From Flavobacteriales bacterium (GTDB lineage Bacteria; Bacteroidota; Bacteroidia; Flavobacteriales_D; Crocinitomicaceae): a stretch of 64,000 nucleotides of DNA. Positions 76-28,627 of the stretch are shown here, one piece after another. Below the pieces are notes generated by a model. It was not told the DNA's origin and did no database searches. It worked only from the letters and a program-made list of their open reading frames with translations. Numbering within the stretch: position 1 is the stretch's first letter; each line of letters opens with the position of its first letter. The position numbers were made by a program, and so were the translations under genes. The stretch covers positions 1 to 64,000 of the forward strand of contig CANITF010000003.1 in the NCBI GenBank assembly GCA_947470515.1. The letters run 5' to 3'.

Positions 76-2313
76 ATGGAAAGTACTTTGCAACAAGAAG
101 CAACATTGAATCAAGCAATCGATCTTGGTTTGCGTCAAGATGAGTTTGAAATGATTAAAAGGATTTTAGGTAGAACACCTAATTTTACTGAAACTGCGGT
201 TTATTCGGTGATGTGGTCGGAACACTGCTCATATAAAAATTCAATCGTTTGGTTAAAGACTTTGCCTAAAGATGGTCCACATATGCTTGTAAAAGCTGGA
301 GAAGAAAATGCTGGTATGGTTGATATCGGTGGTGGATTAGGATGTGTATTTAAAATCGAATCACATAATCACCCAAGTGCATTAGAACCTTATCAAGGAG
401 CTGCTACTGGTGTTGGCGGAATCAATAGAGATATTTTTACCATGGGTGCTAGACCAATTGCTCAGCTAAATTCTTTAAGATTTGGGAATATTGAAAATGA
501 TAGAACAAAATGGCTCGTTAAAGGTGTGACTAAAGGTATTGGAGATTACGGAAATGCTTTCGGAATTCCAATTGTTGGAGGGGAAGTTTTCTTTGACGAT
601 TCATATAATACGAATCCTCTAGTAAATGCCTTTTCAGCTGGAATTATAGATTCGAAAAAAGTTATTTCTGCAAAGGCTTCAGGACCAGGTAACCCAGTTT
701 TCATTGTTGGTTCTGCAACCGGTAAAGATGGAATTGCAGGTGCCGCTTTTGCATCAAAAGATATTACGGAAGATTCAGCAAATGATTTACCATCTGTTCA
801 AGTTGGTGATCCATTCATGGAGAAATTGTTATTGGAAGCAACGATGGAATTGGCTCAAACGGATGCTATTCGTGGAATGCAAGATATGGGTGCTGCTGGA
901 ATTACTTGTTCAACTTGTGAAATGAGTGCGGGTGGAAATGTTGGAATGGATATTCAGTTGGATTTAGTACCTACCAGACAAGAAAACATGCTTCCGTATG
1001 AGATTTTACTTTCTGAATCTCAGGAAAGAATGCTGGTTGTAGTAGCTAAAGGACAAGAAGATGTTGTAAAACGAATTTTTGATAAATGGGATTTACATGC
1101 TGAAGAAATTGGTGTAGTTACCGATTCTAATCGTGTTCGTTATTTCATGCACGGCGAAATGGTTGGAGATGTTCCTGCTGAATCGCTCGTTCTTGGAGGT
1201 GGAGCACCACAATATAAAAGAGAATACAAAGAACCTGCATATTATGAAGAGTTCAAGAAATTCAATATGGATGATGTGAAGCAACCTGAGGATTTGAAGG
1301 AAGTGGCATTTAAAATATTGCAATTACCAAATATCGCTTCGAAACGTTGGGTTTATGAGCAATATGATTCGATGGTTGGAACAAAAACAATGACTACCAA
1401 TCGTCCTTCAGATGCAGGAGTTGTAAATATAAAAGGAACGAATAAAGCGTTGGCAATGACGGTGGATTGTAATTCGCGGTATGTAAATGCTGATCCTGAG
1501 GTAGGAACAATGATTGCCGTTTCTGAAGCAGCAAGAAATATTGTTTGTTCTGGAGGTATTCCAAGTGCAATTACAAACTGCTTGAATTTCGGAAACCCAT
1601 ACAATCCAGAATCTTTCTGGCAATTCGTTGGCGCAATAAAAGGAATGTCAGCGGCTTGTTTAAAATTCGAAACACCCGTTACTGGAGGAAACGTTTCTTT
1701 TTACAATCAAACCGTAAAAGACGGTGTTGAAATTCCCGTTTTTCCAACTCCTACAATTGGTATGATTGGTATCTTAGAGGATAAAGATCGTATCATGACA
1801 CTTGATTTTAAATTAAAAGGAGATTTAATCTTTATTATTGGGGATTGTGTAAACGATATAGCATCGTCGGAATATTTGGCTACATATCATGGAATAAAAG
1901 CATCACCAGCGCCTCATTTTGATCTTGAAAAAGAATACGCAATGCAAAATATGGTGAAAGGGTTGATTCAAAATGAATTAATTAATGCGGCTCATGATGT
2001 TGCAGATGGTGGATTATATGTTACCTTAGTTGAAATGTCTTTCCCTCGAGAACTAGGTTTTGATATCGTAACTGATTCTGAAATTCGTGAAGATGCATTT
2101 CTATTTGGTGAAAGTCAAGGTAGAGTAGTTGTAACCGTAAATGAAGATCATGAAGAAGATTTTATCGAATTTATGATTGATTCTGGGGTAAGCTTTACTT
2201 TACTTGGTCATGTTACAAAAGGTAAAATGATGGTGGATGATGAACATTTCGGATTTGTGACAGAAGCGAAAGAATTATATAATAACGCTCTAGGGAAACT
2301 CCTTGAGAACTAA
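76..2313 (+). CDS. purL: Phosphoribosylformylglycinamidine synthase subunit PurL (short form)
   Basis: This enzyme makes formylglycinamidine ribonucleotide from FGAR, ATP and glutamine-derived ammonia, the fourth step of de novo purine synthesis, in the cytosol. The 745-residue product shows the family hallmarks WSEHCSYKNS near residue 50, KIESHNHPSA near 95, GGxGxGGxxRD-type glycine-rich ATP-binding segments, and the repeated AIRS-like halves (second half from about 435). No C-terminal glutamine amidotransferase domain is present, so this is the short form. By family knowledge it needs separate PurQ and PurS subunits, and neither is encoded in this window. It is the first gene of a closely spaced + strand run with DUF4290, murA and a thioredoxin. 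Confidence 0.96.
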   Translation: MESTLQQEATLNQAIDLGLRQDEFEMIKRILGRTPNFTETAVYSVMWSEHCSYKNSIVWLKTLPKDGPHMLVKAGEENAGMVDIGGGLGCVFKIESHNHPSALEPYQGAATGVGGINRDIFTMGARPIAQLNSLRFGNIENDRTKWLVKGVTKGIGDYGNAFGIPIVGGEVFFDDSYNTNPLVNAFSAGIIDSKKVISAKASGPGNPVFIVGSATGKDGIAGAAFASKDITEDSANDLPSVQVGDPFMEKLLLEATMELAQTDAIRGMQDMGAAGITCSTCEMSAGGNVGMDIQLDLVPTRQENMLPYEILLSESQERMLVVVAKGQEDVVKRIFDKWDLHAEEIGVVTDSNRVRYFMHGEMVGDVPAESLVLGGGAPQYKREYKEPAYYEEFKKFNMDDVKQPEDLKEVAFKILQLPNIASKRWVYEQYDSMVGTKTMTTNRPSDAGVVNIKGTNKALAMTVDCNSRYVNADPEVGTMIAVSEAARNIVCSGGIPSAITNCLNFGNPYNPESFWQFVGAIKGMSAACLKFETPVTGGNVSFYNQTVKDGVEIPVFPTPTIGMIGILEDKDRIMTLDFKLKGDLIFIIGDCVNDIASSEYLATYHGIKASPAPHFDLEKEYAMQNMVKGLIQNELINAAHDVADGGLYVTLVEMSFPRELGFDIVTDSEIREDAFLFGESQGRVVVTVNEDHEEDFIEFMIDSGVSFTLLGHVTKGKMMVDDEHFGFVTEAKELYNNALGKLLEN

Positions 2314-2347
2314 TAATTCGGAATTCGGAATTCAGAATTCGGAATCA
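2314..2347. repeat. Low-complexity AATTCGGAATTC spacer
   Basis: Immediately after the purL stop the spacer repeats the 6-base word GAATTC/AATTCG four times, giving a self-complementary tract. Similar word-built spacers lie at 9061-9104, 16512-16570, 21893-21933 and 53205-53256, so this looks like one member of a dispersed intergenic family and not a unique regulatory site. Confidence 0.6.
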
Positions 2348-2363
2348 AATTTTTAATTTGAAA

Positions 2364-3014
2364 ATGGAATACAATACAACAAGAGGTAAATTAATCCTTC
2401 CTGAATATGGACGCAACGTGCAAAACATGATTGCACATGCTATGGAGATTGAAGATAAAGACGAAAGAAATCGTGCTGCTCAGGCTATTATTGAGGTAAT
2501 GGGTCAATTGAATCCGCATTTGCGGGATGTTGATGATTTTCGTCACAAATTGTGGACACACTTATTTGTAATGTCTGATTTCATGCTGGACGTTGATTCG
2601 CCTTATGAAATTCCAAAACCTGAAGCATTAAAGGAGCGTCCTGAAATAATGGATTATCCTAAAAGTAATATTCGTTTTGGACATTATGGGAGTTATACAC
2701 AGCGCATTTTAGAAGGCGCAAAAGATGTAACTGATGAAAAAGAACGTGAGTATTTGAAAACGACCATGGCTAATTTCATGAAAAAACAGTTTTTGGAGCA
2801 CAATAACGACGCGGTTGAAAACAATGTAATTGCTCAACAACTAAAGGAACTTTCAAAAGGAGAATTGATTCTTGAAAATCCAGATGAGTTGATGAATACA
2901 AATACGATTTTGCGAAACATGAATATTGGTCCGAATCAGAACCAAAATAATAAAAATCGAGGTAAATCGAATTTCAAGCAAAAAAATCAGAAAAAACCCT
3001 TTAAAAAACAATAA
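2364..3014 (+). CDS. DUF4290 domain protein
   Basis: The product has 216 residues and matches the DUF4290 family, a protein found across Bacteroidota whose function is not established. The N-terminal 180 residues are acidic and largely helical (YNTTRGKLILPEYGRN start, RDVDDFRHKLWTHLF near 60). The last 30 residues are a basic, Asn/Lys/Gln-rich tail (NQNQNNKNRGKSNFKQ), which suggests binding to nucleic acid or another acidic partner; that is inference. I take the ATG at 2364 and not an in-frame TTG two codons upstream because family members begin MEYNT or similar. Its stop lies two bases before murA, so the two are almost certainly co-transcribed. Confidence 0.85.
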   Translation: MEYNTTRGKLILPEYGRNVQNMIAHAMEIEDKDERNRAAQAIIEVMGQLNPHLRDVDDFRHKLWTHLFVMSDFMLDVDSPYEIPKPEALKERPEIMDYPKSNIRFGHYGSYTQRILEGAKDVTDEKEREYLKTTMANFMKKQFLEHNNDAVENNVIAQQLKELSKGELILENPDELMNTNTILRNMNIGPNQNQNNKNRGKSNFKQKNQKKPFKKQ

Positions 3015-3016
3015 AC

Positions 3017-4324
3017 ATGGCTTCTTTTGAAATTTACGGTGGTAAACCGCTAAAAGGCGAATTGATTCCTCAAGGTGCAAAAAATGAAGCATTACAAGTT
3101 TTGTGTGCACCGTTACTTACTGCTGAAAAAGTTACGATTTCAAATGTCCCAGATATAATTGATGTAAACAAATTAATCAGTTTGCTTCAAACAATGGGCG
3201 TTAAAATAGAAAAAGTTGAAAAAGGAACATTTATTTTTCAAGCGAAAGAAATAGATCTTGCTTATCTAGAAACGGAAGATTTCAAACAAAGAGCGGGTTC
3301 TTTGCGAGGTTCAATCATGATTGTTGGACCATTGTTAGCACGTTTCGGAAAAGGATTTATCCCAAAACCAGGGGGAGATAAAATTGGTAGAAGAAGATTA
3401 GATACGCATTTTGAAGGTTTCACTATGCTAGGTGCAAAATTCAACTACGATGCTGGGGAACATTTCTATTCTATTGAAGCTAAAAAATTAAAGGGAGCTT
3501 ATATTCACCTTGATGAAGCTTCTGTAACAGGAACGGCAAATGTTCTAATGGCAGCTGTGATGGCTGAAGGACATACAACAATTTATAATGCAGCATGTGA
3601 ACCGTATCTTCAGCAATTGTGTAAAATGTTGAATTCAATGGGCGCTAATATTAGTGGAATTGGTTCTAATATGTTACAAATTGAAGGTGTTAAAAATTTG
3701 GGTGGTTGCTTTCATCGAATTTTACCTGATATGATTGAAATTGGTAGTTTTATTGGTTTGGCAGCGATGACGAAATCAGAAATAACTATTAAAGACGTTA
3801 GCTGGGATAATTTAGGAGTGATTCCAAATGTATTTAGAAAATTAGGAATTAAACTGGAACGTCGTGGAGATGATATATTTGTTCCTGCTCAAGATAGTTA
3901 TGAAATTGACACCTTTATTGATGGGTCAATCTTAACAATTGCTGATGCACCTTGGCCAGGATTTACGCCTGATTTATTATCAATTATTTTAGTGGTTGCA
4001 ACGCAAGCAAAAGGATCTGTTTTGATTCATCAAAAAATGTTTGAATCACGTCTGTTTTTCGTTGATAAATTAATAGATATGGGAGCGCAAATCATTTTAT
4101 GTGATCCACACAGAGCAACAGTTATCGGATTAAATAATGAACACACTTTGAAGGGTATCCAAATGACTTCTCCTGATATTAGAGCAGGTGTATCTTTATT
4201 GATTGCTGCTTTATCGGCAAAAGGTAAAAGTGTTATTCATAACATAGAGCAAATTGATCGTGGGTACCAGGATATTGAGATTAGATTAAACAATATTGGT
4301 GCGGATATCAGAAGAATTGGTTAG
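3017..4324 (+). CDS. murA: UDP-N-acetylglucosamine 1-carboxyvinyltransferase MurA, Asp-type active site
   Basis: MurA transfers enolpyruvate from PEP to UDP-GlcNAc, the first committed step of peptidoglycan synthesis. The 435-residue length is normal and the EPSP-synthase-like fold motifs are intact (GAKNEALQ near 20, RGSIMIVGPLLARFG near 97, SVTGTANVLMA near 175, DIRAGVSLLIAAL near 395). The mobile active-site loop reads PGGDKIGRRR, so the residue aligned with the usual catalytic Cys (Cys115 in E. coli) is Asp121. That substitution is known from mycobacterial and chlamydial MurA, where it removes covalent attack by fosfomycin. Intrinsic fosfomycin tolerance of this enzyme is therefore inferred. 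The gene sits two bases after DUF4290. Confidence 0.96.
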   Translation: MASFEIYGGKPLKGELIPQGAKNEALQVLCAPLLTAEKVTISNVPDIIDVNKLISLLQTMGVKIEKVEKGTFIFQAKEIDLAYLETEDFKQRAGSLRGSIMIVGPLLARFGKGFIPKPGGDKIGRRRLDTHFEGFTMLGAKFNYDAGEHFYSIEAKKLKGAYIHLDEASVTGTANVLMAAVMAEGHTTIYNAACEPYLQQLCKMLNSMGANISGIGSNMLQIEGVKNLGGCFHRILPDMIEIGSFIGLAAMTKSEITIKDVSWDNLGVIPNVFRKLGIKLERRGDDIFVPAQDSYEIDTFIDGSILTIADAPWPGFTPDLLSIILVVATQAKGSVLIHQKMFESRLFFVDKLIDMGAQIILCDPHRATVIGLNNEHTLKGIQMTSPDIRAGVSLLIAALSAKGKSVIHNIEQIDRGYQDIEIRLNNIGADIRRIG

Positions 4325-21933: not shown

Positions 21934-21934
21934 T

Positions 21935-21954
21935 CACTGAGCTTGTCGAAGTGC
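21935..21954. repeat. Dispersed-type element CACTGAGCTTGTCGAAGTG
   Basis: The reverse complement, CACTTCGACAAGCTCAGTG, is a word I recall as a recurrent intergenic repeat in many unrelated bacterial genomes. It is GC-richer than its surroundings. Only one copy is in this window. It supplies the TTG that serves as the -33 element of the promoter of the following regulator. Confidence 0.4.
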
Positions 21955-21974
21955 CAAATTCCTTCGTATCTTTA
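21943..21974 (+). promoter_or_regulatory. Probable promoter of the response regulator
   Basis: TTG (21943-21945), 21 bases, then TATCTTTA (21967-21974), one mismatch from TAnnTTTG. The spacing is close to the Bacteroidota optimum and gives a leader of about 12 bases before the ATG at 21992. The -33 TTG lies inside a REP-like word. Confidence 0.45.
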
Positions 21975-21991
21975 ACCCAAACAAATAAATC

Positions 21992-23167
21992 ATGGGAAAA
22001 ATATTAATCATTGACGATGAAAGAGCAATCCGCAGAGCAATGCGAGAAATCCTTGAATTTGAAGACTTCGAAGTGGAAGAAGCAGAGAACGGAAAAGATG
22101 GATTGGATAAAGCAATTTCAAAATCGTATGATATTATTTTTTGTGATATAAAAATGCCATTAATGGATGGTATGGAAGTTTTGGATGAGTTGATAAAAGC
22201 CAAAATTGAAACTCCAGTAATCATGATTAGTGGACATGGAAACATTGATACTGCCGTTCAAGCAATAAAAAAAGGTGCTTTTGATTTTATCGAAAAACCA
22301 TTGGATTTGAACCGTATATTGGTAACAATTCGCAATGCCAGAGAAAAGGTTGGACTAGTCGAAGAAACGAAGCAACTTAAAACTACTGTAAAAAGATTTA
22401 AAGGGAGTTCGATTATTGGTGAAATGGATTCCATTATCAAGATCAAAGAAATGATTGAAAAAGTTGCTCCTTCTGATGCTCGTGTGCTGATTACTGGTGA
22501 AAATGGAACCGGAAAGGAATTGGTTGCTCGTTCATTACACGATAATTCGAACCGTCGTAAAATGCAATTTATTGAAGTAAATTGTGCTGCTATTCCATCT
22601 GAATTAATCGAAAGCGAATTATTTGGACACGAAAAAGGCGCATTTACTTCAGCTGTAAAAGATAAGAAAGGAAAATTCGAATTGGCTTCTGGTGGAACAT
22701 TGTTCTTAGATGAAATTGGTGATATGTCTGCCAGTGCTCAAGCGAAAGTATTGCGAGCATTGCAAGAAAATGTTATTCAACGAGTAGGAGGTGAACGCGA
22801 TATCAAAGTTGATTGCCGTGTTGTTGCTGCGACAAATAAAGATTTGCGAAAAGAAATTGAAGAAGGACGATTTAGAGAAGATTTATACCACCGTTTAGCC
22901 GTTATTTTAATTCATGTTCCTTCATTGAATGAAAGACGAGGCGATATTCCTTTGTTGGCTGAACACTTTATGACGATGGTTTGCGCTGAGCATGGTATTC
23001 CAAGAAAATCGTACACAGAAGACGCATTACTAGCACTTCAACAAACGGATTGGTCTGGAAATATCCGTGAACTAAGAAACATCGTTGAACGTTTAATCAT
23101 TCTTTGTGATAATTCAATAACTGCTGATGACGTTAGAATGTTTGCTAATCCAAGAGCAAAAGCTTAA
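21992..23167 (+). CDS. Sigma-54-type response regulator lacking a DNA-binding domain
   Basis: The 391-residue protein has a receiver domain (1-120) with phospho-acceptor Asp52 in FCDIKMPLMDG and the Lys in FIEKPLDL. An AAA+ domain follows, with Walker A GENGTGKE (169-176) and Walker B GGTLFLDEIGD (234-244). The sigma-54 contact loop reads GAFTSA (216-221) instead of GAFTGA. The chain stops about 20 residues after NIRELRNIVERL, so the Fis-type DNA-binding domain usual in NtrC proteins is absent. Helicobacter FlgR is a known activator without this domain. It probably activates sigma-54 promoters from solution or has a lineage-specific role. No partner kinase is in the window. Confidence 0.92.
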   Translation: MGKILIIDDERAIRRAMREILEFEDFEVEEAENGKDGLDKAISKSYDIIFCDIKMPLMDGMEVLDELIKAKIETPVIMISGHGNIDTAVQAIKKGAFDFIEKPLDLNRILVTIRNAREKVGLVEETKQLKTTVKRFKGSSIIGEMDSIIKIKEMIEKVAPSDARVLITGENGTGKELVARSLHDNSNRRKMQFIEVNCAAIPSELIESELFGHEKGAFTSAVKDKKGKFELASGGTLFLDEIGDMSASAQAKVLRALQENVIQRVGGERDIKVDCRVVAATNKDLRKEIEEGRFREDLYHRLAVILIHVPSLNERRGDIPLLAEHFMTMVCAEHGIPRKSYTEDALLALQQTDWSGNIRELRNIVERLIILCDNSITADDVRMFANPRAKA

Positions 23168-23246: not shown

Positions 23247-24218
23247 TTATTCGACAATGTCACTCATTAATTTTGCGCCTCCCCATTCAAGAACTACAAA
23301 ACCTGAACGATCCATTTTTGGTAATATTTGTTCACTTATTGAATTTTTCGAAATTTCGTTTGAGTCACAAAATAGAATGTAAATTCTATAAATGTTCTTT
23401 GGCTTAGGTGAAATAGTTAAATCAGCAAATAAATTAGCATCCTCATTCAGAACAAAGTGAATAAAATTACTTGAATTCTTATTTAGTTGTGGACCCCAAA
23501 ACGTGATAAAATCGGCTTGTTCTTTTGAGTTCATTCCAAATTCAGTAAGTTTCTTTTCTAAAAATGAAATAGTTGAATCCTTGGAAACTATAGACCCTTT
23601 TGAAATTTCGAAATCATTGAAAGTCAATTTCTGCTGAGATTCCCAGAATAAATAATTGTAACTATTATCACCAATCTTTAATTCTCCATTTGGACTTGCA
23701 GTTACTTCCCATCCATTTTCATATGTTGGATATGTAAACGTGAATTCTCCTTTTGGTTTAACACTGACCTTAACGATTGTGGGAATCTCAGGATACAAAT
23801 AAATCACAGGTTTATCAACCATAATCATTTGCTCTTCTGCTTTTTGAAAAAAGATAGAAACATAAGTTTTATGTTGTGACTTACCAACTATTGAATCTGT
23901 ATATATTTCATAATAGTCGGAAGAATAATAGAAAACGAAGGCGTAAGAACCCGATTTAACGTTTAAATCGAAATGATTTTGCGCATCTAATTTTGTATGT
24001 TGGTTCACACCATTAAAAGAATATAAAAGTTCAGTTTTTGGATTAACCTGTGTTTCGGTCAAATTGTAAAACGTAAAAGAAAAGGCAGATTCATTTGATT
24101 TTAAACTTTTGTCAAATTGTGCACTGTCAATTCTATATTGCATGTAAAGTCCTTTATCTTGAGATGCAAAAGCCATGTAAAAAGTAAAAAGGAAGCAAAT
24201 GAATGCGATATTTTTCAT
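23247..24218 (-). CDS. Secreted protein of unknown function, KPVIYLYP family (copy 1)
   Basis: I do not recognise a characterised family. The 323-residue product has a signal peptide (IAFICFLFTFYMAFA), an N-terminal beta-rich region of about 120 residues, then a conserved core with KPVIYLYPEIPTIVKV near 137, YENGWEVTASPNGEL, YNYLFWES, FLEKKLTEFGMN, ADFITFWGPQL and YRIYILF. The KPVIYLYP and YNYLFWE words recur, from memory, in hypothetical secreted proteins of many phyla. It is a tandem paralogue of the gene six bases upstream and shares all these blocks in the same order. Export to periplasm or surface is inferred. The two genes form a minus-strand operon. Confidence 0.75.
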   Translation of the reverse strand: MKNIAFICFLFTFYMAFASQDKGLYMQYRIDSAQFDKSLKSNESAFSFTFYNLTETQVNPKTELLYSFNGVNQHTKLDAQNHFDLNVKSGSYAFVFYYSSDYYEIYTDSIVGKSQHKTYVSIFFQKAEEQMIMVDKPVIYLYPEIPTIVKVSVKPKGEFTFTYPTYENGWEVTASPNGELKIGDNSYNYLFWESQQKLTFNDFEISKGSIVSKDSTISFLEKKLTEFGMNSKEQADFITFWGPQLNKNSSNFIHFVLNEDANLFADLTISPKPKNIYRIYILFCDSNEISKNSISEQILPKMDRSGFVVLEWGGAKLMSDIVE

Positions 24219-24224
24219 GTTTTT

Positions 24225-25208
24225 TTAGTTTTCGGTATAACAAGCAACAGTTTTTGTTGGCTTCGAAATGGTACTTCCTCCCCATTCAACAACAGTAAAT
24301 CCAGAACGATTAATTTTTGCTAATTGCTGTTCTTTGATCAACATGATTTCATTTGTAGCCAAAGGAGCTGTAAGAATGTAAATTCGATAAAGATGATCTG
24401 GTTTTGGTGAAATTGCCAAATCAGCAAACCTGCTGCAATCTTCATTCACGACAAATTGTATAAAATTCTTTGGGTTTTTAACTAATTGTGGACCCCAAAA
24501 GGTAATGAAATCTGTTTTTTCTGAATCATTTAATCCGAATTCATTTAGTTTTTCTTCTAAAAAAGCGATGGTATTTTCTTTTTCAACAATGAATCCCGTA
24601 CCCCAATCTATCATGAAATCTTCAATTTGTTGCGATGATTCCCAAAAAAGATAGTTGTATTTATTTACGCCAATTTCAAGCTCACCAGAAGGATTTGCAC
24701 TTACTTTCCACCCATCGTTATATGCGGGATACATAAACGTTAATTCACCTTTCGGCAAAACCTTGACTTCAACGATTGTTGGTGTTTCAGGATATAAATA
24801 AATAACTGGTTTTTCAACTTCAACCATTCTTCCAGCTCGCTGCCAATAAACGGAAACATACATTCTTTCTTCAGATTTTATTTTCATTGAATCTGTGTGA
24901 ATCTCGTAATATACATTCGAGTAATAAAAATCGAACTTATAACTAGTGGAAGGAAGATTTAAAGTGAATTGATTGAAAGTATTTAAAGTCGCAATTTTTT
25001 CAATACCGTTATACGCATATAGAACATCGCGGTTGTTTTTATCGAAAGAGAAATTGTGAAATGAAAATGTAAAAGCAGATTCATTACTTTTTAAAGTTGG
25101 ATCCTTTACGACGCTATCAATGGAATAAGGGGGAATATATTTTTCTAAATCATGAGCAAATGAGAAGAGTGAAATAAACAGGAATGCGAATGCGAAAATC
25201 AATTTCAT
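24225..25208 (-). CDS. Secreted protein of unknown function, KPVIYLYP family (copy 2)
   Basis: The 327-residue product begins with a signal peptide (LIFAFAFLFISLFSFA) and carries the same block order as its downstream paralogue: SNESAFTFSFHNF near 40, KPVIYLYPETPTIVEV near 138, YNDGWKVSANPSGELEIG, YNYLFWES, DFITFWGPQL, FADLAISPKP and YRIYIL. It differs in having a longer C-terminal tail with one Cys (KPTKTVACYTEN). The pair clearly arose by tandem duplication followed by divergence. No enzymatic motif is visible. A 428-base intergenic region lies upstream and must contain its promoter. Confidence 0.75.
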   Translation of the reverse strand: MKLIFAFAFLFISLFSFAHDLEKYIPPYSIDSVVKDPTLKSNESAFTFSFHNFSFDKNNRDVLYAYNGIEKIATLNTFNQFTLNLPSTSYKFDFYYSNVYYEIHTDSMKIKSEERMYVSVYWQRAGRMVEVEKPVIYLYPETPTIVEVKVLPKGELTFMYPAYNDGWKVSANPSGELEIGVNKYNYLFWESSQQIEDFMIDWGTGFIVEKENTIAFLEEKLNEFGLNDSEKTDFITFWGPQLVKNPKNFIQFVVNEDCSRFADLAISPKPDHLYRIYILTAPLATNEIMLIKEQQLAKINRSGFTVVEWGGSTISKPTKTVACYTEN

Positions 25209-25636: not shown

Positions 25637-28627
25637 ATGAACGTAAAAGCATTTTTTATTAAAAATTGGATTCATTTTGCAGTTGTTGCATTTATCTTGA
25701 TTCTAGCCGCAATCTATTTTAAACCACAAGTTGATGGTTACGGATTAAAGCAGCATGATGTTGAACAATGGCTTGGCGCATCCCATGAAACAGATCGTTT
25801 TCGGAATAATACTGGTGAGGAAGCACTTTGGACAAACTCAATGTTTGGAGGTATGCCTGCGACACAAATTTCAGTTGTGTATACTGGAAATTATGTCAAA
25901 ATGATGTCTTATGAATATTTTAGAATGTTTCCTGGTCCGATGGGATTACTAATTCTTCATCTAATAGGTTTTTATATACTCGCACTTTTTTTACGCATTA
26001 ACCCAATCATCGGAATTGTCGGTGCTGTGGCATTTAGTTTTGCCAGTTATGAAATTGTCATCATTCAAGCTGGACATTTAACTAAATCAATGGCCACAGC
26101 TTTTATGGCACCTATGCTGGGAGCCTTTATATACGCCTATCGAACCAATAGAATGTGGGGAATTGCATGGTCTGCGCTTTTCATGACGTTAGAACTAGCT
26201 ATGAATCACGTTCAAGTAACGTACTATTTTATCTTCGTACTGATATTTGTAGGCATATATTTTTTCTTTGATTCAATTAAGGAGAAATATTTTAAACCTT
26301 TTTTAATTACAACCGGTGGACTTATTGTAGCATATTTAATTGCATTTGCAGCGAATATTGGAAATATTGCTTTGACTGCAGATTATGCAAAAAATACCAT
26401 TAGAGGTGGAAATGATATTAACATAAACCCAGATGGCACTGTTGCGAAAAATCAATCCATAGGTTTGGATAAGGATTATATCACTCAATGGTCATATGGA
26501 AAAGGTGAAACGTTTACCTTGATTTCACCAAACATTAAAGGTGGAGGATCTTTTGCAATTGGTGGAAGTTCATTTCAAGATATTGTTGAGAATTCTGATT
26601 TGAGCGCTGGAGATCAAAATGAGGTTTTGAAATCACCTGCCTATTGGGGTGAACAACCTTTTACTTCAGGACCAACTTATGTTGGGGCAATTGTACTTTT
26701 CTTTGCTTTCTTAGGTTTAGTATTTCTGAAAACAAGATTAAAATGGTCGCTGTTTGCGGTCACAATATTGGCTGTTTTATTATCATGGGGCAAAAATTTC
26801 ATGGGATTAACCGACTTTTTTATAGACTATATTCCTGGATATAATAAATTCAGAACTGTTACAATTATTTTAGTTTTGGTTGAATTGTGTATACCTGTTT
26901 TGGGTATTTTGTTTTTGGACATGTTAATTAAGGAACGGGAGAGTTTTAAAGAGAAAAAGAAACAATTCGTAATTGCAATTGGTGTTTTTATAGTTGTTTT
27001 GGTTGTTGTGAAATTTGCAGGATTAGGGGATAATTATTCTTCTAAAGCGGAACGCGAAATTTACGAAAATACTTTAGAAATTGAGCAAGGTATAAGAAAT
27101 CAAATTTTATCAGCTGATCCTCAAATGATGAAGTCAAATTATAATGTGGATGTTTCTGTGCCTGCTCAAGTAGATGCTATGGTAGCACAAGAAGCAGAAA
27201 AAGTATATCAAGGATTTGACAATTTAAAATTAATCCGTCAAGATATCTTTAATTCAAGTATGAATAGAACTATCTTATTTGTGTTCTTTGCTGGATTATT
27301 GATTTTATTGTTTTTGTACACTTCAATTCCAAGTATAGCTTTAGCATTTGGAATATTGGTCTTAACAATGATGGATATTATTCCTGTTGCTTACCAATAT
27401 TTAGGAGCTCAGGAAGAAGGAAATAAATTAAAATATTGGGAGGAAGTAGGATTAACTACTTATCCGATTTCTTCTAATACGGCGGATGACCAAATTATGT
27501 CAAACGAGTTAAATTTGAACTCATCGTTAAAAGCGAAAGTCGAAAAAGCAGGTCGTGAAGGTGCGCAAAAAGCAACTGACTTAGGTTATACGGGTTTAGC
27601 AAAAAAGAATGTGGTTGATTCATACCGCTATTCAGCATTGAATTTCGCTACAAATTACCGTGTTTTTGATATGAATGGCGGTTTCCAAAGCAATAGAGCA
27701 TCTTATTTTCATAAGTCTTTAGGTGGATATCATGGTGCTAAATTGAGAAACATTAATAATCTGTTTGATTTCCATCTTTCTCGCATGAATAATAAAGTGT
27801 ATGATATGTTGAATGTTAAATATTTTATGCAACAAGATGAAACTGGTGTGGCGATGGTTCGTCCAAATCCGAGTATTTTAGGAAATGCATGGTTTATTCA
27901 ACGTGTTGAGAAATATGCTACACCAAATGATGAAATTCGTGCATTGGGAAGTCAGTTTAAAATCGCTAATAAAGGTCAAGGTCAATTCTTAGTGAATTAT
28001 ATCCAGCAAAAGGAAGCAACAATTTATGGTGCTGAGAAGATTCAATATTTGATTCCAGGAAGAGATACAATCGATATACCGTTAAGTAATGGAATGACAG
28101 AAGGTACAGAAGCCATGTTTGTAATGGATGCAAGAGGACAAACTAATTTGGTGCCAATTATGACCATGACTATGGACACTGCAAAATCGTTTTTATCTCT
28201 AGTGTCAATTAAAGTTATTAATGAGTTTAAGCCTGCTGAAGAAGCAATAATGTTGACTTCTGAATCTTCTAAATTAACTACATCAAAGTTCTCAGGAGAA
28301 GGCTCAATTAAACTGTTGAGCTACGCTCCAAATAAATTGACTTATTCAGCGGATGCAAAAGGCAATCAACTAGCTGTTTTTTCTGAGGTCTATTACCCAG
28401 AAGGATGGAAAGCCTTTGTTGATGGGAAGGAAGTCGAAATAAGAAAAGTAAATTACCTGTTAAGAGGATTAGAATTAACTAGTGGCAAACATAAAATTGA
28501 ATTTATTTACGATAATTCAAAATATCTTAAAGTAAATAACGTAGCTAGAATTGGTTCGGTATTATTATTTATTCTTTTCGGAATTACGATTTTTTATAAT
28601 TGGAAAAGGAAAAAAATCAAAGCTTAA
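25637..28627 (+). CDS. YfhO-family membrane protein (GT-C-like)
   Basis: The 996-residue protein has about a dozen transmembrane helices in its N-terminal two-thirds, starting WIHFAVVAFILILAAIYF. A large extracytoplasmic region occupies about 590-960, with the family's closing motif FSEVYYPEGWKAFVDGKEV near 917, then a final helix (IGSVLLFILFGITIFY) and a basic end. Early residues include GYGLKQHDVEQWLGASHE, with the Asp expected of GT-C enzymes. Characterised relatives in Bacillus and Listeria help glycosylate lipoteichoic acid. In a Gram-negative cell the role is unknown; lipid-linked sugar transfer to a surface glycan is inferred. It is convergent with the pseudaminic acid locus. Confidence 0.85.
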   Translation: MNVKAFFIKNWIHFAVVAFILILAAIYFKPQVDGYGLKQHDVEQWLGASHETDRFRNNTGEEALWTNSMFGGMPATQISVVYTGNYVKMMSYEYFRMFPGPMGLLILHLIGFYILALFLRINPIIGIVGAVAFSFASYEIVIIQAGHLTKSMATAFMAPMLGAFIYAYRTNRMWGIAWSALFMTLELAMNHVQVTYYFIFVLIFVGIYFFFDSIKEKYFKPFLITTGGLIVAYLIAFAANIGNIALTADYAKNTIRGGNDININPDGTVAKNQSIGLDKDYITQWSYGKGETFTLISPNIKGGGSFAIGGSSFQDIVENSDLSAGDQNEVLKSPAYWGEQPFTSGPTYVGAIVLFFAFLGLVFLKTRLKWSLFAVTILAVLLSWGKNFMGLTDFFIDYIPGYNKFRTVTIILVLVELCIPVLGILFLDMLIKERESFKEKKKQFVIAIGVFIVVLVVVKFAGLGDNYSSKAEREIYENTLEIEQGIRNQILSADPQMMKSNYNVDVSVPAQVDAMVAQEAEKVYQGFDNLKLIRQDIFNSSMNRTILFVFFAGLLILLFLYTSIPSIALAFGILVLTMMDIIPVAYQYLGAQEEGNKLKYWEEVGLTTYPISSNTADDQIMSNELNLNSSLKAKVEKAGREGAQKATDLGYTGLAKKNVVDSYRYSALNFATNYRVFDMNGGFQSNRASYFHKSLGGYHGAKLRNINNLFDFHLSRMNNKVYDMLNVKYFMQQDETGVAMVRPNPSILGNAWFIQRVEKYATPNDEIRALGSQFKIANKGQGQFLVNYIQQKEATIYGAEKIQYLIPGRDTIDIPLSNGMTEGTEAMFVMDARGQTNLVPIMTMTMDTAKSFLSLVSIKVINEFKPAEEAIMLTSESSKLTTSKFSGEGSIKLLSYAPNKLTYSADAKGNQLAVFSEVYYPEGWKAFVDGKEVEIRKVNYLLRGLELTSGKHKIEFIYDNSKYLKVNNVARIGSVLLFILFGITIFYNWKRKKIKA

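Follow-up and report, generated by a model that had tools for sequence, protein, structure and literature searches.

Several described systems resemble the proteins studied here. The CarboxypepD_reg-like or transthyretin-like domains (PF13715 and PF13620) have the fold of their N-terminal third; however, the window proteins match no Pfam model, and the likeness does not concern their C-terminal core. The type V pilins of the Bacteroidota (FimA/Mfa1) have a lipoprotein signal and two transthyretin-like pilin domains. The lipoprotein signal sets the pilins apart, as a simple pattern search found a lipobox in none of the 44 array proteins, and with regard to the two-domain feature the N-terminal domain of the window proteins fits the fold, whereas the core gave no solved match among the candidates listed by Foldseek. 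The OmpA-type combination of a barrel and a periplasmic module offers another analogy, since some core proteins appear by eye to have a barrel-like or lipid-anchored N-terminal part and a compact C-terminal module; however, no OmpA-family match was obtained among the core proteins scanned. The C-terminal core itself is held in common with WP_013483720 of Ruminococcus albus, a BspA-family PARCEL LRR surface protein, although the N-terminal part of that protein is of the LRR/PARCEL type and, unlike in the window proteins, no transthyretin-like domain was matched in it. Lastly, A0A3G4ZNZ8, an uncharacterised protein of the giant virus Terrestrivirus, is similar in fold, very probably with the core included, in this case in a viral context and as a predicted structure only. 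Set beside these systems, the core is an unclassified domain in exported modular proteins of a familiar kind, and a conserved core without a significant match in the Pfam, NCBIfam and PDB copies searched points to a gap in what is known of the bacterial envelope.

The two genes lie in a stretch of 64,000 nucleotides of a Flavobacteriales genome, and this whole stretch is called the window throughout. Their features and flanking genes are as follows.

24225..25208, minus strand: gene 1, 327 aa, with signal peptide, predicted transthyretin-like domain and C-terminal core
23247..24218, minus strand: gene 2, 323 aa, a paralog with the layout of gene 1, starting 6 bp downstream of it
25155..25208, minus strand: gene 1 signal peptide, residues 1-18, cleavage site approximate (hydrophobic N-terminus; helix 2-20 in the model)
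24831..25127, minus strand: predicted transthyretin/CarboxypepD_reg-like domain of gene 1, residues ~28-126 (structure match 5aq0_B)
24267..24827, minus strand: C-terminal core of gene 1, residues 128-314 (core-profile match and AlphaFold core model)
23832..24134, minus strand: predicted transthyretin-like domain of gene 2, residues ~29-129 (by alignment to gene 1)
23268..23828, minus strand: C-terminal core of gene 2, residues 131-317 (core-profile match)
23661..23672, minus strand: recombination boundary in gene 2, about residues 183-186; resembles sister gene 2 upstream and sister gene 3 downstream (locus L002)
21992..23167, plus strand: flanking gene for an NtrC-like protein with receiver and sigma-54 ATPase (Pfam/NCBIfam)
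25637..28627, plus strand: flanking gene for a YfhO-family membrane protein (Pfam)

An earlier note, made from the DNA letters alone, had described the pair as tandem paralogs for exported proteins, and both descriptions hold. The genes are 6 bp apart on one strand, their products are identical at 173 of 321 positions (54%, E 1e-114, near full length), and the blocks SNESAF, KPVIYLYPE, NGW/DGW, YNYLFWES, FITFWGPQL and YRIYIL follow in the same order in both. A whole-protein search and a broad core profile identified them as the sole copies in their own 2.99 Mb genome. A signal-like hydrophobic N-terminal stretch is present in 42 of the 44 proteins of our alignment (A1), gene 1 and gene 2 among these, and the two proteins that lack it are ORFs starting within the N-terminal domain. 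This alignment leaves out both L001 copies, copy 1 of L002 and the duplicate window loci L016 and L017. Neither gene 1 nor gene 2 had a family match in Pfam or NCBIfam at E<=1, PHROGs gave just two weak matches, both to gene 2 (E 0.057 and 0.14), and a search of PDB sequences with gene 1 returned nothing of weight (E 1.3). Pfam and NCBIfam hold models of T9SS sorting domains, and CHU_C was matched in another protein; neither window protein matched a T9SS sorting family of either database. As judged from the signal stretches and the structural model described below, gene 1 and gene 2 encode probable envelope proteins that are exported, have two domains and lack a lipobox. The window yielded nothing when scanned for Rfam families and tRNAs, promoter- and terminator-like sites near the pair did not rise above shuffled expectation, and a Bacteroidota-type promoter pattern had no strict match upstream of the pair.

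An AlphaFold2 model of gene 1, built on 44 relatives, reached a mean pLDDT of 91.6 and a pTM of 0.72, with block pLDDT values of 79-98 for residues ~40-126. Using VIA as a second structure aligner, residues 44-126 were superposed on 5aq0_B, a transthyretin-like domain from human carboxypeptidase D (Z 8.5, rmsd 2.5, 78 residues aligned), and several of the rows that follow are carboxypeptidases or teneurins. The Z score is modest, and the transthyretin-like fold is supported by matches to PF13715 (CarbopepD_reg_2) in 15 of the 44 relatives; PF13620 was matched in seven of the 44, in both cases at E<=0.1, and the window proteins are without either. The Pfam cut-off for CarboxypepD_reg was passed by L038 (55.5 bits) and L039 (52.6 bits), which have another core type. 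The top Foldseek match of the whole gene 1 model was 4iyk, titled putative carbohydrate-binding protein (E 9.7e-4); as it aligned to the N-terminal domain (residues 41-126, Z 6.0), it is uninformative on the core. Residues ~40-126 of gene 1 are therefore predicted to form a transthyretin/CarboxypepD_reg-like beta sandwich, and the window proteins would have kept this fold while the Pfam sequence signature of the domain is absent from them.

The VIA list for the whole model was filled by the N-terminal domain, so the core, "KPVIYLYP...EWGG", was modelled separately. The AlphaFold model of the core alone (pLDDT 95.1, pTM 0.90) is mainly beta and also has two successive helices and one further, short helix. 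Foldseek found no match to it in the PDB below E 0.29, and VIA, which re-examines Foldseek candidates only, nothing above Z 3.7. AP mu-homology domains made up most of the top VIA rows and were rejected as too weak (Z 3.0-3.7, rmsd 3.8-5.5). An hmmsearch of PDB sequences with a 21-member core profile gave chance-level matches only, and two of these, a yeast glucose-repressible alcohol dehydrogenase transcriptional effector (E 0.15) and a beta-glucanase (E 0.35), were judged to be due to chance. The absence of a PDB relative is no proof of a new fold, as a low-ranked Foldseek relative could be missed. One of the 21 cores, that of L030, matches DUF7878 (PF25297) with an E value of 2.5e-4; since its score of 21 bits lies below the curated cut-off of 25 bits and the model is silent in the three core-bearing genomes G000, G116 and G182, with zero matches, membership of this family was dropped. 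Among 5.39 million open papers, none was found that names DUF7878 or PF25297 or contains the core words (KPVIYLYP and variants, VVEWGG, PYLFWE), though the blank for the core words is weak evidence of absence because papers seldom print such peptide strings. The core is not mentioned in the accessible part of the PARCEL paper (PMC2996958). The earlier statements that the core belongs to no recognised enzyme family and has no assigned function agree with these results: Pfam, NCBIfam, PHROGs and the PDB hold no significant match to it, nothing was found in print under its words, and the structure prediction and profile search of the core region proposed in the same note yielded a confident model and no characterised family.

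Ten residues, P134, Y137, P161, W167, E230, W238, R275, R301, W309 and G310, are identical in 90 of 90 cores, those of both window genes among them, and seven of the ten are aromatic or charged; the list was taken from the same 90 cores and is therefore descriptive rather than an independent test. K133 is present in 89 of the 90, and positions 233 (D or E) and 308 (E or D) are acidic in all. The invariant glutamate and arginines together with the near-invariant lysine and acidic positions would suit an active site and a buried salt-bridge network equally well. The first possibility would make the core a periplasmic or cell-surface enzyme of a class not yet described, with E230, R275, R301, K133, D/E233 and E/D308 forming the active site. 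Its appeal lies in the strict retention of just these residues, in a dN/dS of 0.07-0.10 for the core among gene 1 orthologs and in the 42% identity between one Bacteroidota core and one R. albus core, which is high for a mere spacer. However, the core carries no catalytic signature and showed no significant similarity to any enzyme in the databases searched, and not one catalytic domain occurs among the Pfam matches of ten example architectures. We regard an enzymatic role as rather unlikely, though a serious rival to the binding role proposed below.

The proteins that carry the core differ widely in their N-terminal parts. Architectures were compared using 36 sources hand-chosen from 90 (the window and L001-L089), which provide 90 cores, and some of the sources omitted are not duplicates. 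Of the 90 cores, 89 end at most 13 residues before the C-terminus. The exception has another core after it; it lies in L087 (positions 1528-3102), where a 524-aa protein has one transthyretin-sized N-terminal part and then two cores in tandem. The N-terminal part is transthyretin-like in the arrays and contains BspA-type LRR/PARCEL repeats above cut-off in the R. albus protein, where SH3_3 (26.5 bits against a cut-off of 27) and fn3 stay below theirs. By eye, it consists of a TonB-plug-like stretch with a CarboxypepD_reg-like segment in L044-L046, resembles FG-GAP/VCBS repeats in L049-L053, L055 and L056, is barrel-like without a Pfam match in L032, L033 and L035 and is a membrane anchor in L040; also by eye, L028-L031, L034 and L036 are lipoproteins of ~500 aa, and L057 and L060 are bare lipoproteins. 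As far as sequence and models show it, the core is thus a discrete C-terminal module kept across several architectures, and these make a surface or envelope role of the window pair plausible. In the neighbourhood of the single-copy core lipoproteins of L028-L031, a CotH-kinase gene was noted (by Pfam in L028, alike by eye in the others), as was a cysteine-dioxygenase-like gene (by Pfam in L030, similar by eye in L028, L029 and L031). In L034, the gene immediately upstream of the core lipoprotein (310-2592) encodes a protein that has SprB repeats and carries a type IX signal of the CHU_C family.

The best explanation, which we put forward tentatively and at somewhat less than an even chance, is that the core is an extracytoplasmic ligand-binding module in exported two-domain envelope proteins. 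Its ligand would most likely be a glycan of the envelope or the environment and less likely a peptide, and it would be presented by whichever N-terminal part carries it. A binding role is preferred because the core ends anchoring or adhesin-like parts and because aromatic and charged residues account for seven of the ten invariant positions; searches with Foldseek, VIA and the profile against PDB sequences found no solved binding module that resembles it. The alternatives discussed in this text jointly outweigh the binding role.

The window pair is a short example of tandem arrays, in which the paralogs of each A1 locus share one strand. The gaps between successive array genes range from -8 to 16 bp in 26 of 29 cases, the others being 74, 122 and 166 bp. 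A Fluviicola record (L003) has seven tandem genes, and the longest array, L085 of genome G402 from a different family of the same order, has eight. The motif filter behind A1 missed extra copies in L004, L006, L010 and L013, and these were recovered by profile search. When members of one array are compared, the core has the higher identity and the N-terminal domain the lower in 66 of 70 pairs (means 49% and 35%), with four pairs opposing the trend; no pairs came from L004-L006, and pairs with 30 or fewer shared N-domain columns were dropped. Three sets of related arrays were compared in three segments, and for every segment the best match was the positional ortholog and never a paralog; positional orthology was also seen in the core tree for L003/L042 and L004/L006. 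The identity between orthologs does vary by segment, as with the 75% and 92% for copy 1 of L009 and L014.

Such position-by-position orthology between related species could be expected if the core were an assembly or anchoring module that docks into a multi-subunit envelope structure, with the paralogs as subunits of one complex or fibre. The tandem cores of the L087 protein and the occurrence of transthyretin-like folds in pilins and adhesins among the VIA rows point the same way. However, copy number ranges from one to eight, many genomes have single-copy forms with unrelated N-terminal parts, and there is neither a pilin profile match nor a lipobox. We rate this explanation about as likely as an enzymatic role. 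If the core is instead a binding module, as we prefer, the array genes, whose spacing suggests that they probably form one operon, would supply several differing versions of a single tool, in which the faster-diverging transthyretin-like domain may alter context or partner specificity.

The pair also seems to record a change in array size. In a sister genome (L002) three genes stand where the window has two. Gene 2 is 88-99% identical to gene 2 of L002 in 40-codon windows starting at residues 1-140, whereas for those starting at residue 180 or later the best match is gene 3 of L002 (67-96%). The 417 informative sites split 275:5 before and 21:116 after the boundary, where the maximum chi-square was 307 as compared with 27, the largest value in 2000 permutations; L001 has the same chimeric pattern. 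On the strength of these alignments, gene 2 is a chimera, fused from what in L002 are two separate genes. One deletion, in frame between copies 2 and 3, would explain the two-gene state, a direction of change that we infer. The window pair would then most simply be a three-gene array cut to two by in-frame fusion of copies 2 and 3, and arrays could shrink by recombination between copies. The last 60 residues of gene 2 match sister gene 3 less well (67-71%), which indicates a further history. The idea that array copies recombine as a rule was considered and rejected: the chimera is a single event, and no such exchange was seen in the three other array sets at three-segment resolution. With regard to selection, dN/dS among three gene 1 orthologs is 0.04-0.20 in the N-terminal domain, next to the low core values given above. 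For gene 2, comparison with L001 gave a core value of 0.38 and an N-domain value of 0.13, and comparison with L002 gave 0.47 in the N-terminal domain on few changes; as the core value is based on few synonymous changes (8.5), constraint is well shown for gene 1 only.

The distribution of the core is patchy. Of 26 genus genomes searched with the core profile, 12 contain it, a count that takes in partial genes at contig ends (G510 and G522); the corresponding numbers are 25 of 150 for the order and 15 of 295 for the class. The whole-protein profile matched 45 of 100 family genomes; the match in G084 covers the N-terminal domain only (42-132 of a 951-aa frame), so the core is present in 44 of the 100. 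A single-protein search of the phylum gave 17 of 296 genomes, and a gene 1 pattern scan of genome contigs, a method limited to close relatives, turned up 15 loci whose titles all name Bacteroidota. In the tree of cores, those of the family genomes pair closely with Fluviicola cores, so that the family is probably Crocinitomicaceae. This natural presence in 12 of 26 genus genomes, together with the confident model and the invariant residues, makes core function directly testable. Accessory presence of this kind (12/26 in the genus, 45/100 in the family), along with tandem paralogs whose N-terminal domains diverge faster, would also fit exported immunity or self-recognition proteins directed against the envelope-targeting toxins of rivals. 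Yet PADLOC models of known anti-phage defence proteins matched none of six proteins, gene 1 orthologs are under purifying selection and the single-copy multi-domain forms are unlike immunity proteins, and we consider such a role very improbable.

Similar proteins are probably common in other phyla, a point that was checked here in part. The R. albus (Bacillota) protein, encoded on pRUMAL02, contains the core with an E value of 2e-31 and 42% identity over query residues 131-314. The predicted Terrestrivirus structure (BFVD) was matched by Foldseek with an E value of 7.2e-13 (215 columns aligned, 21% of them identical; rmsd 3.7, TMq 0.46); as the alignment exceeds the length of the N-terminal domain, the core is very probably included. 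The claim of the earlier note that the core words appear across distant phyla stands for the samples taken, that is, widely in the Bacteroidota, in R. albus and in one predicted giant-virus structure. Its interpretation as a whole was right on the paralogs, the signal peptides, the lack of an enzyme family and the spread beyond the phylum, and it missed the fold of the N-terminal domain, the modular nature of the core, the eight-copy arrays and the chimera. In a wider reading, the core would represent a new extracytoplasmic superfamily of unsolved fold in at least Bacteroidota, Bacillota and a giant virus, acting as a generic C-terminal envelope-facing module for activity or recognition, with the arrays of the order (probably of Crocinitomicaceae and neighbours) keeping one chemistry and varying the front domain; we hold this to be possible but on balance not probable. 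Only one of 72,556 plasmid records and one of 50,697 phage records carry the core. The latter (L019, MT835506.1, labelled Bacteriophage sp.) is probably a bacterial contig, as PYC_OADA/HMGL-type and carboxyl-transferase genes lie near the core, and the idea of a mobile element was abandoned with one plasmid and one seemingly mislabelled phage contig as its only instances. Scans of viral contigs confirmed none, a weak test because exact short peptides were required. The MAG titles of L002, L010 and L013 (Chitinophaga pinensis, Chryseobacterium gleum) look wrong; the cores of L010 and L013 group in the tree with those of L009, which is titled Flavobacteriia.

With respect to genomic site, the core genes lie beside an NtrC-like gene on the same contig in seven of the 12 genus carriers (G000, G074, G082, G098, G510, G513 and G525). 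The other border is a YfhO-family gene in the window genome (G000), in G074 and, judged from contig ends, in G510, whereas different genes occupy it in G082, G098 and G513. In G037 (L069), the core gene is ~8 kb from NtrC and adjoins a YfhO-like ORF (by eye), and in the core-less G511 (L076) a YfhO-like ORF (by eye) directly adjoins the NtrC-like gene. The core unit is accordingly an accessory one that is usually next to the NtrC-like gene, with sites that vary on the other border. A Usp-type gene lies between the core genes and the NtrC-like gene in G074 (Pfam) and G082 (by eye). The earlier suggestion of a stress-related system finds hardly any support, its one point of contact being a Usp-family gene beside the array in sisters (L043 by Pfam, L077 by eye), and none of the observations speaks for a part in motility.

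The NtrC-like protein encoded at 21992-23167 on the plus strand is 391 aa long and comprises a receiver, a sigma-54 ATPase and a lid, and its 15 Pfam matches include no HTH model; complete genus matches lie in open frames of 389-421 aa, so this short form looks conserved. An antisense ORF over the NtrC-like gene (21934-22245, minus strand) recurs in several relatives and is probably the shadow of a conserved coding frame.
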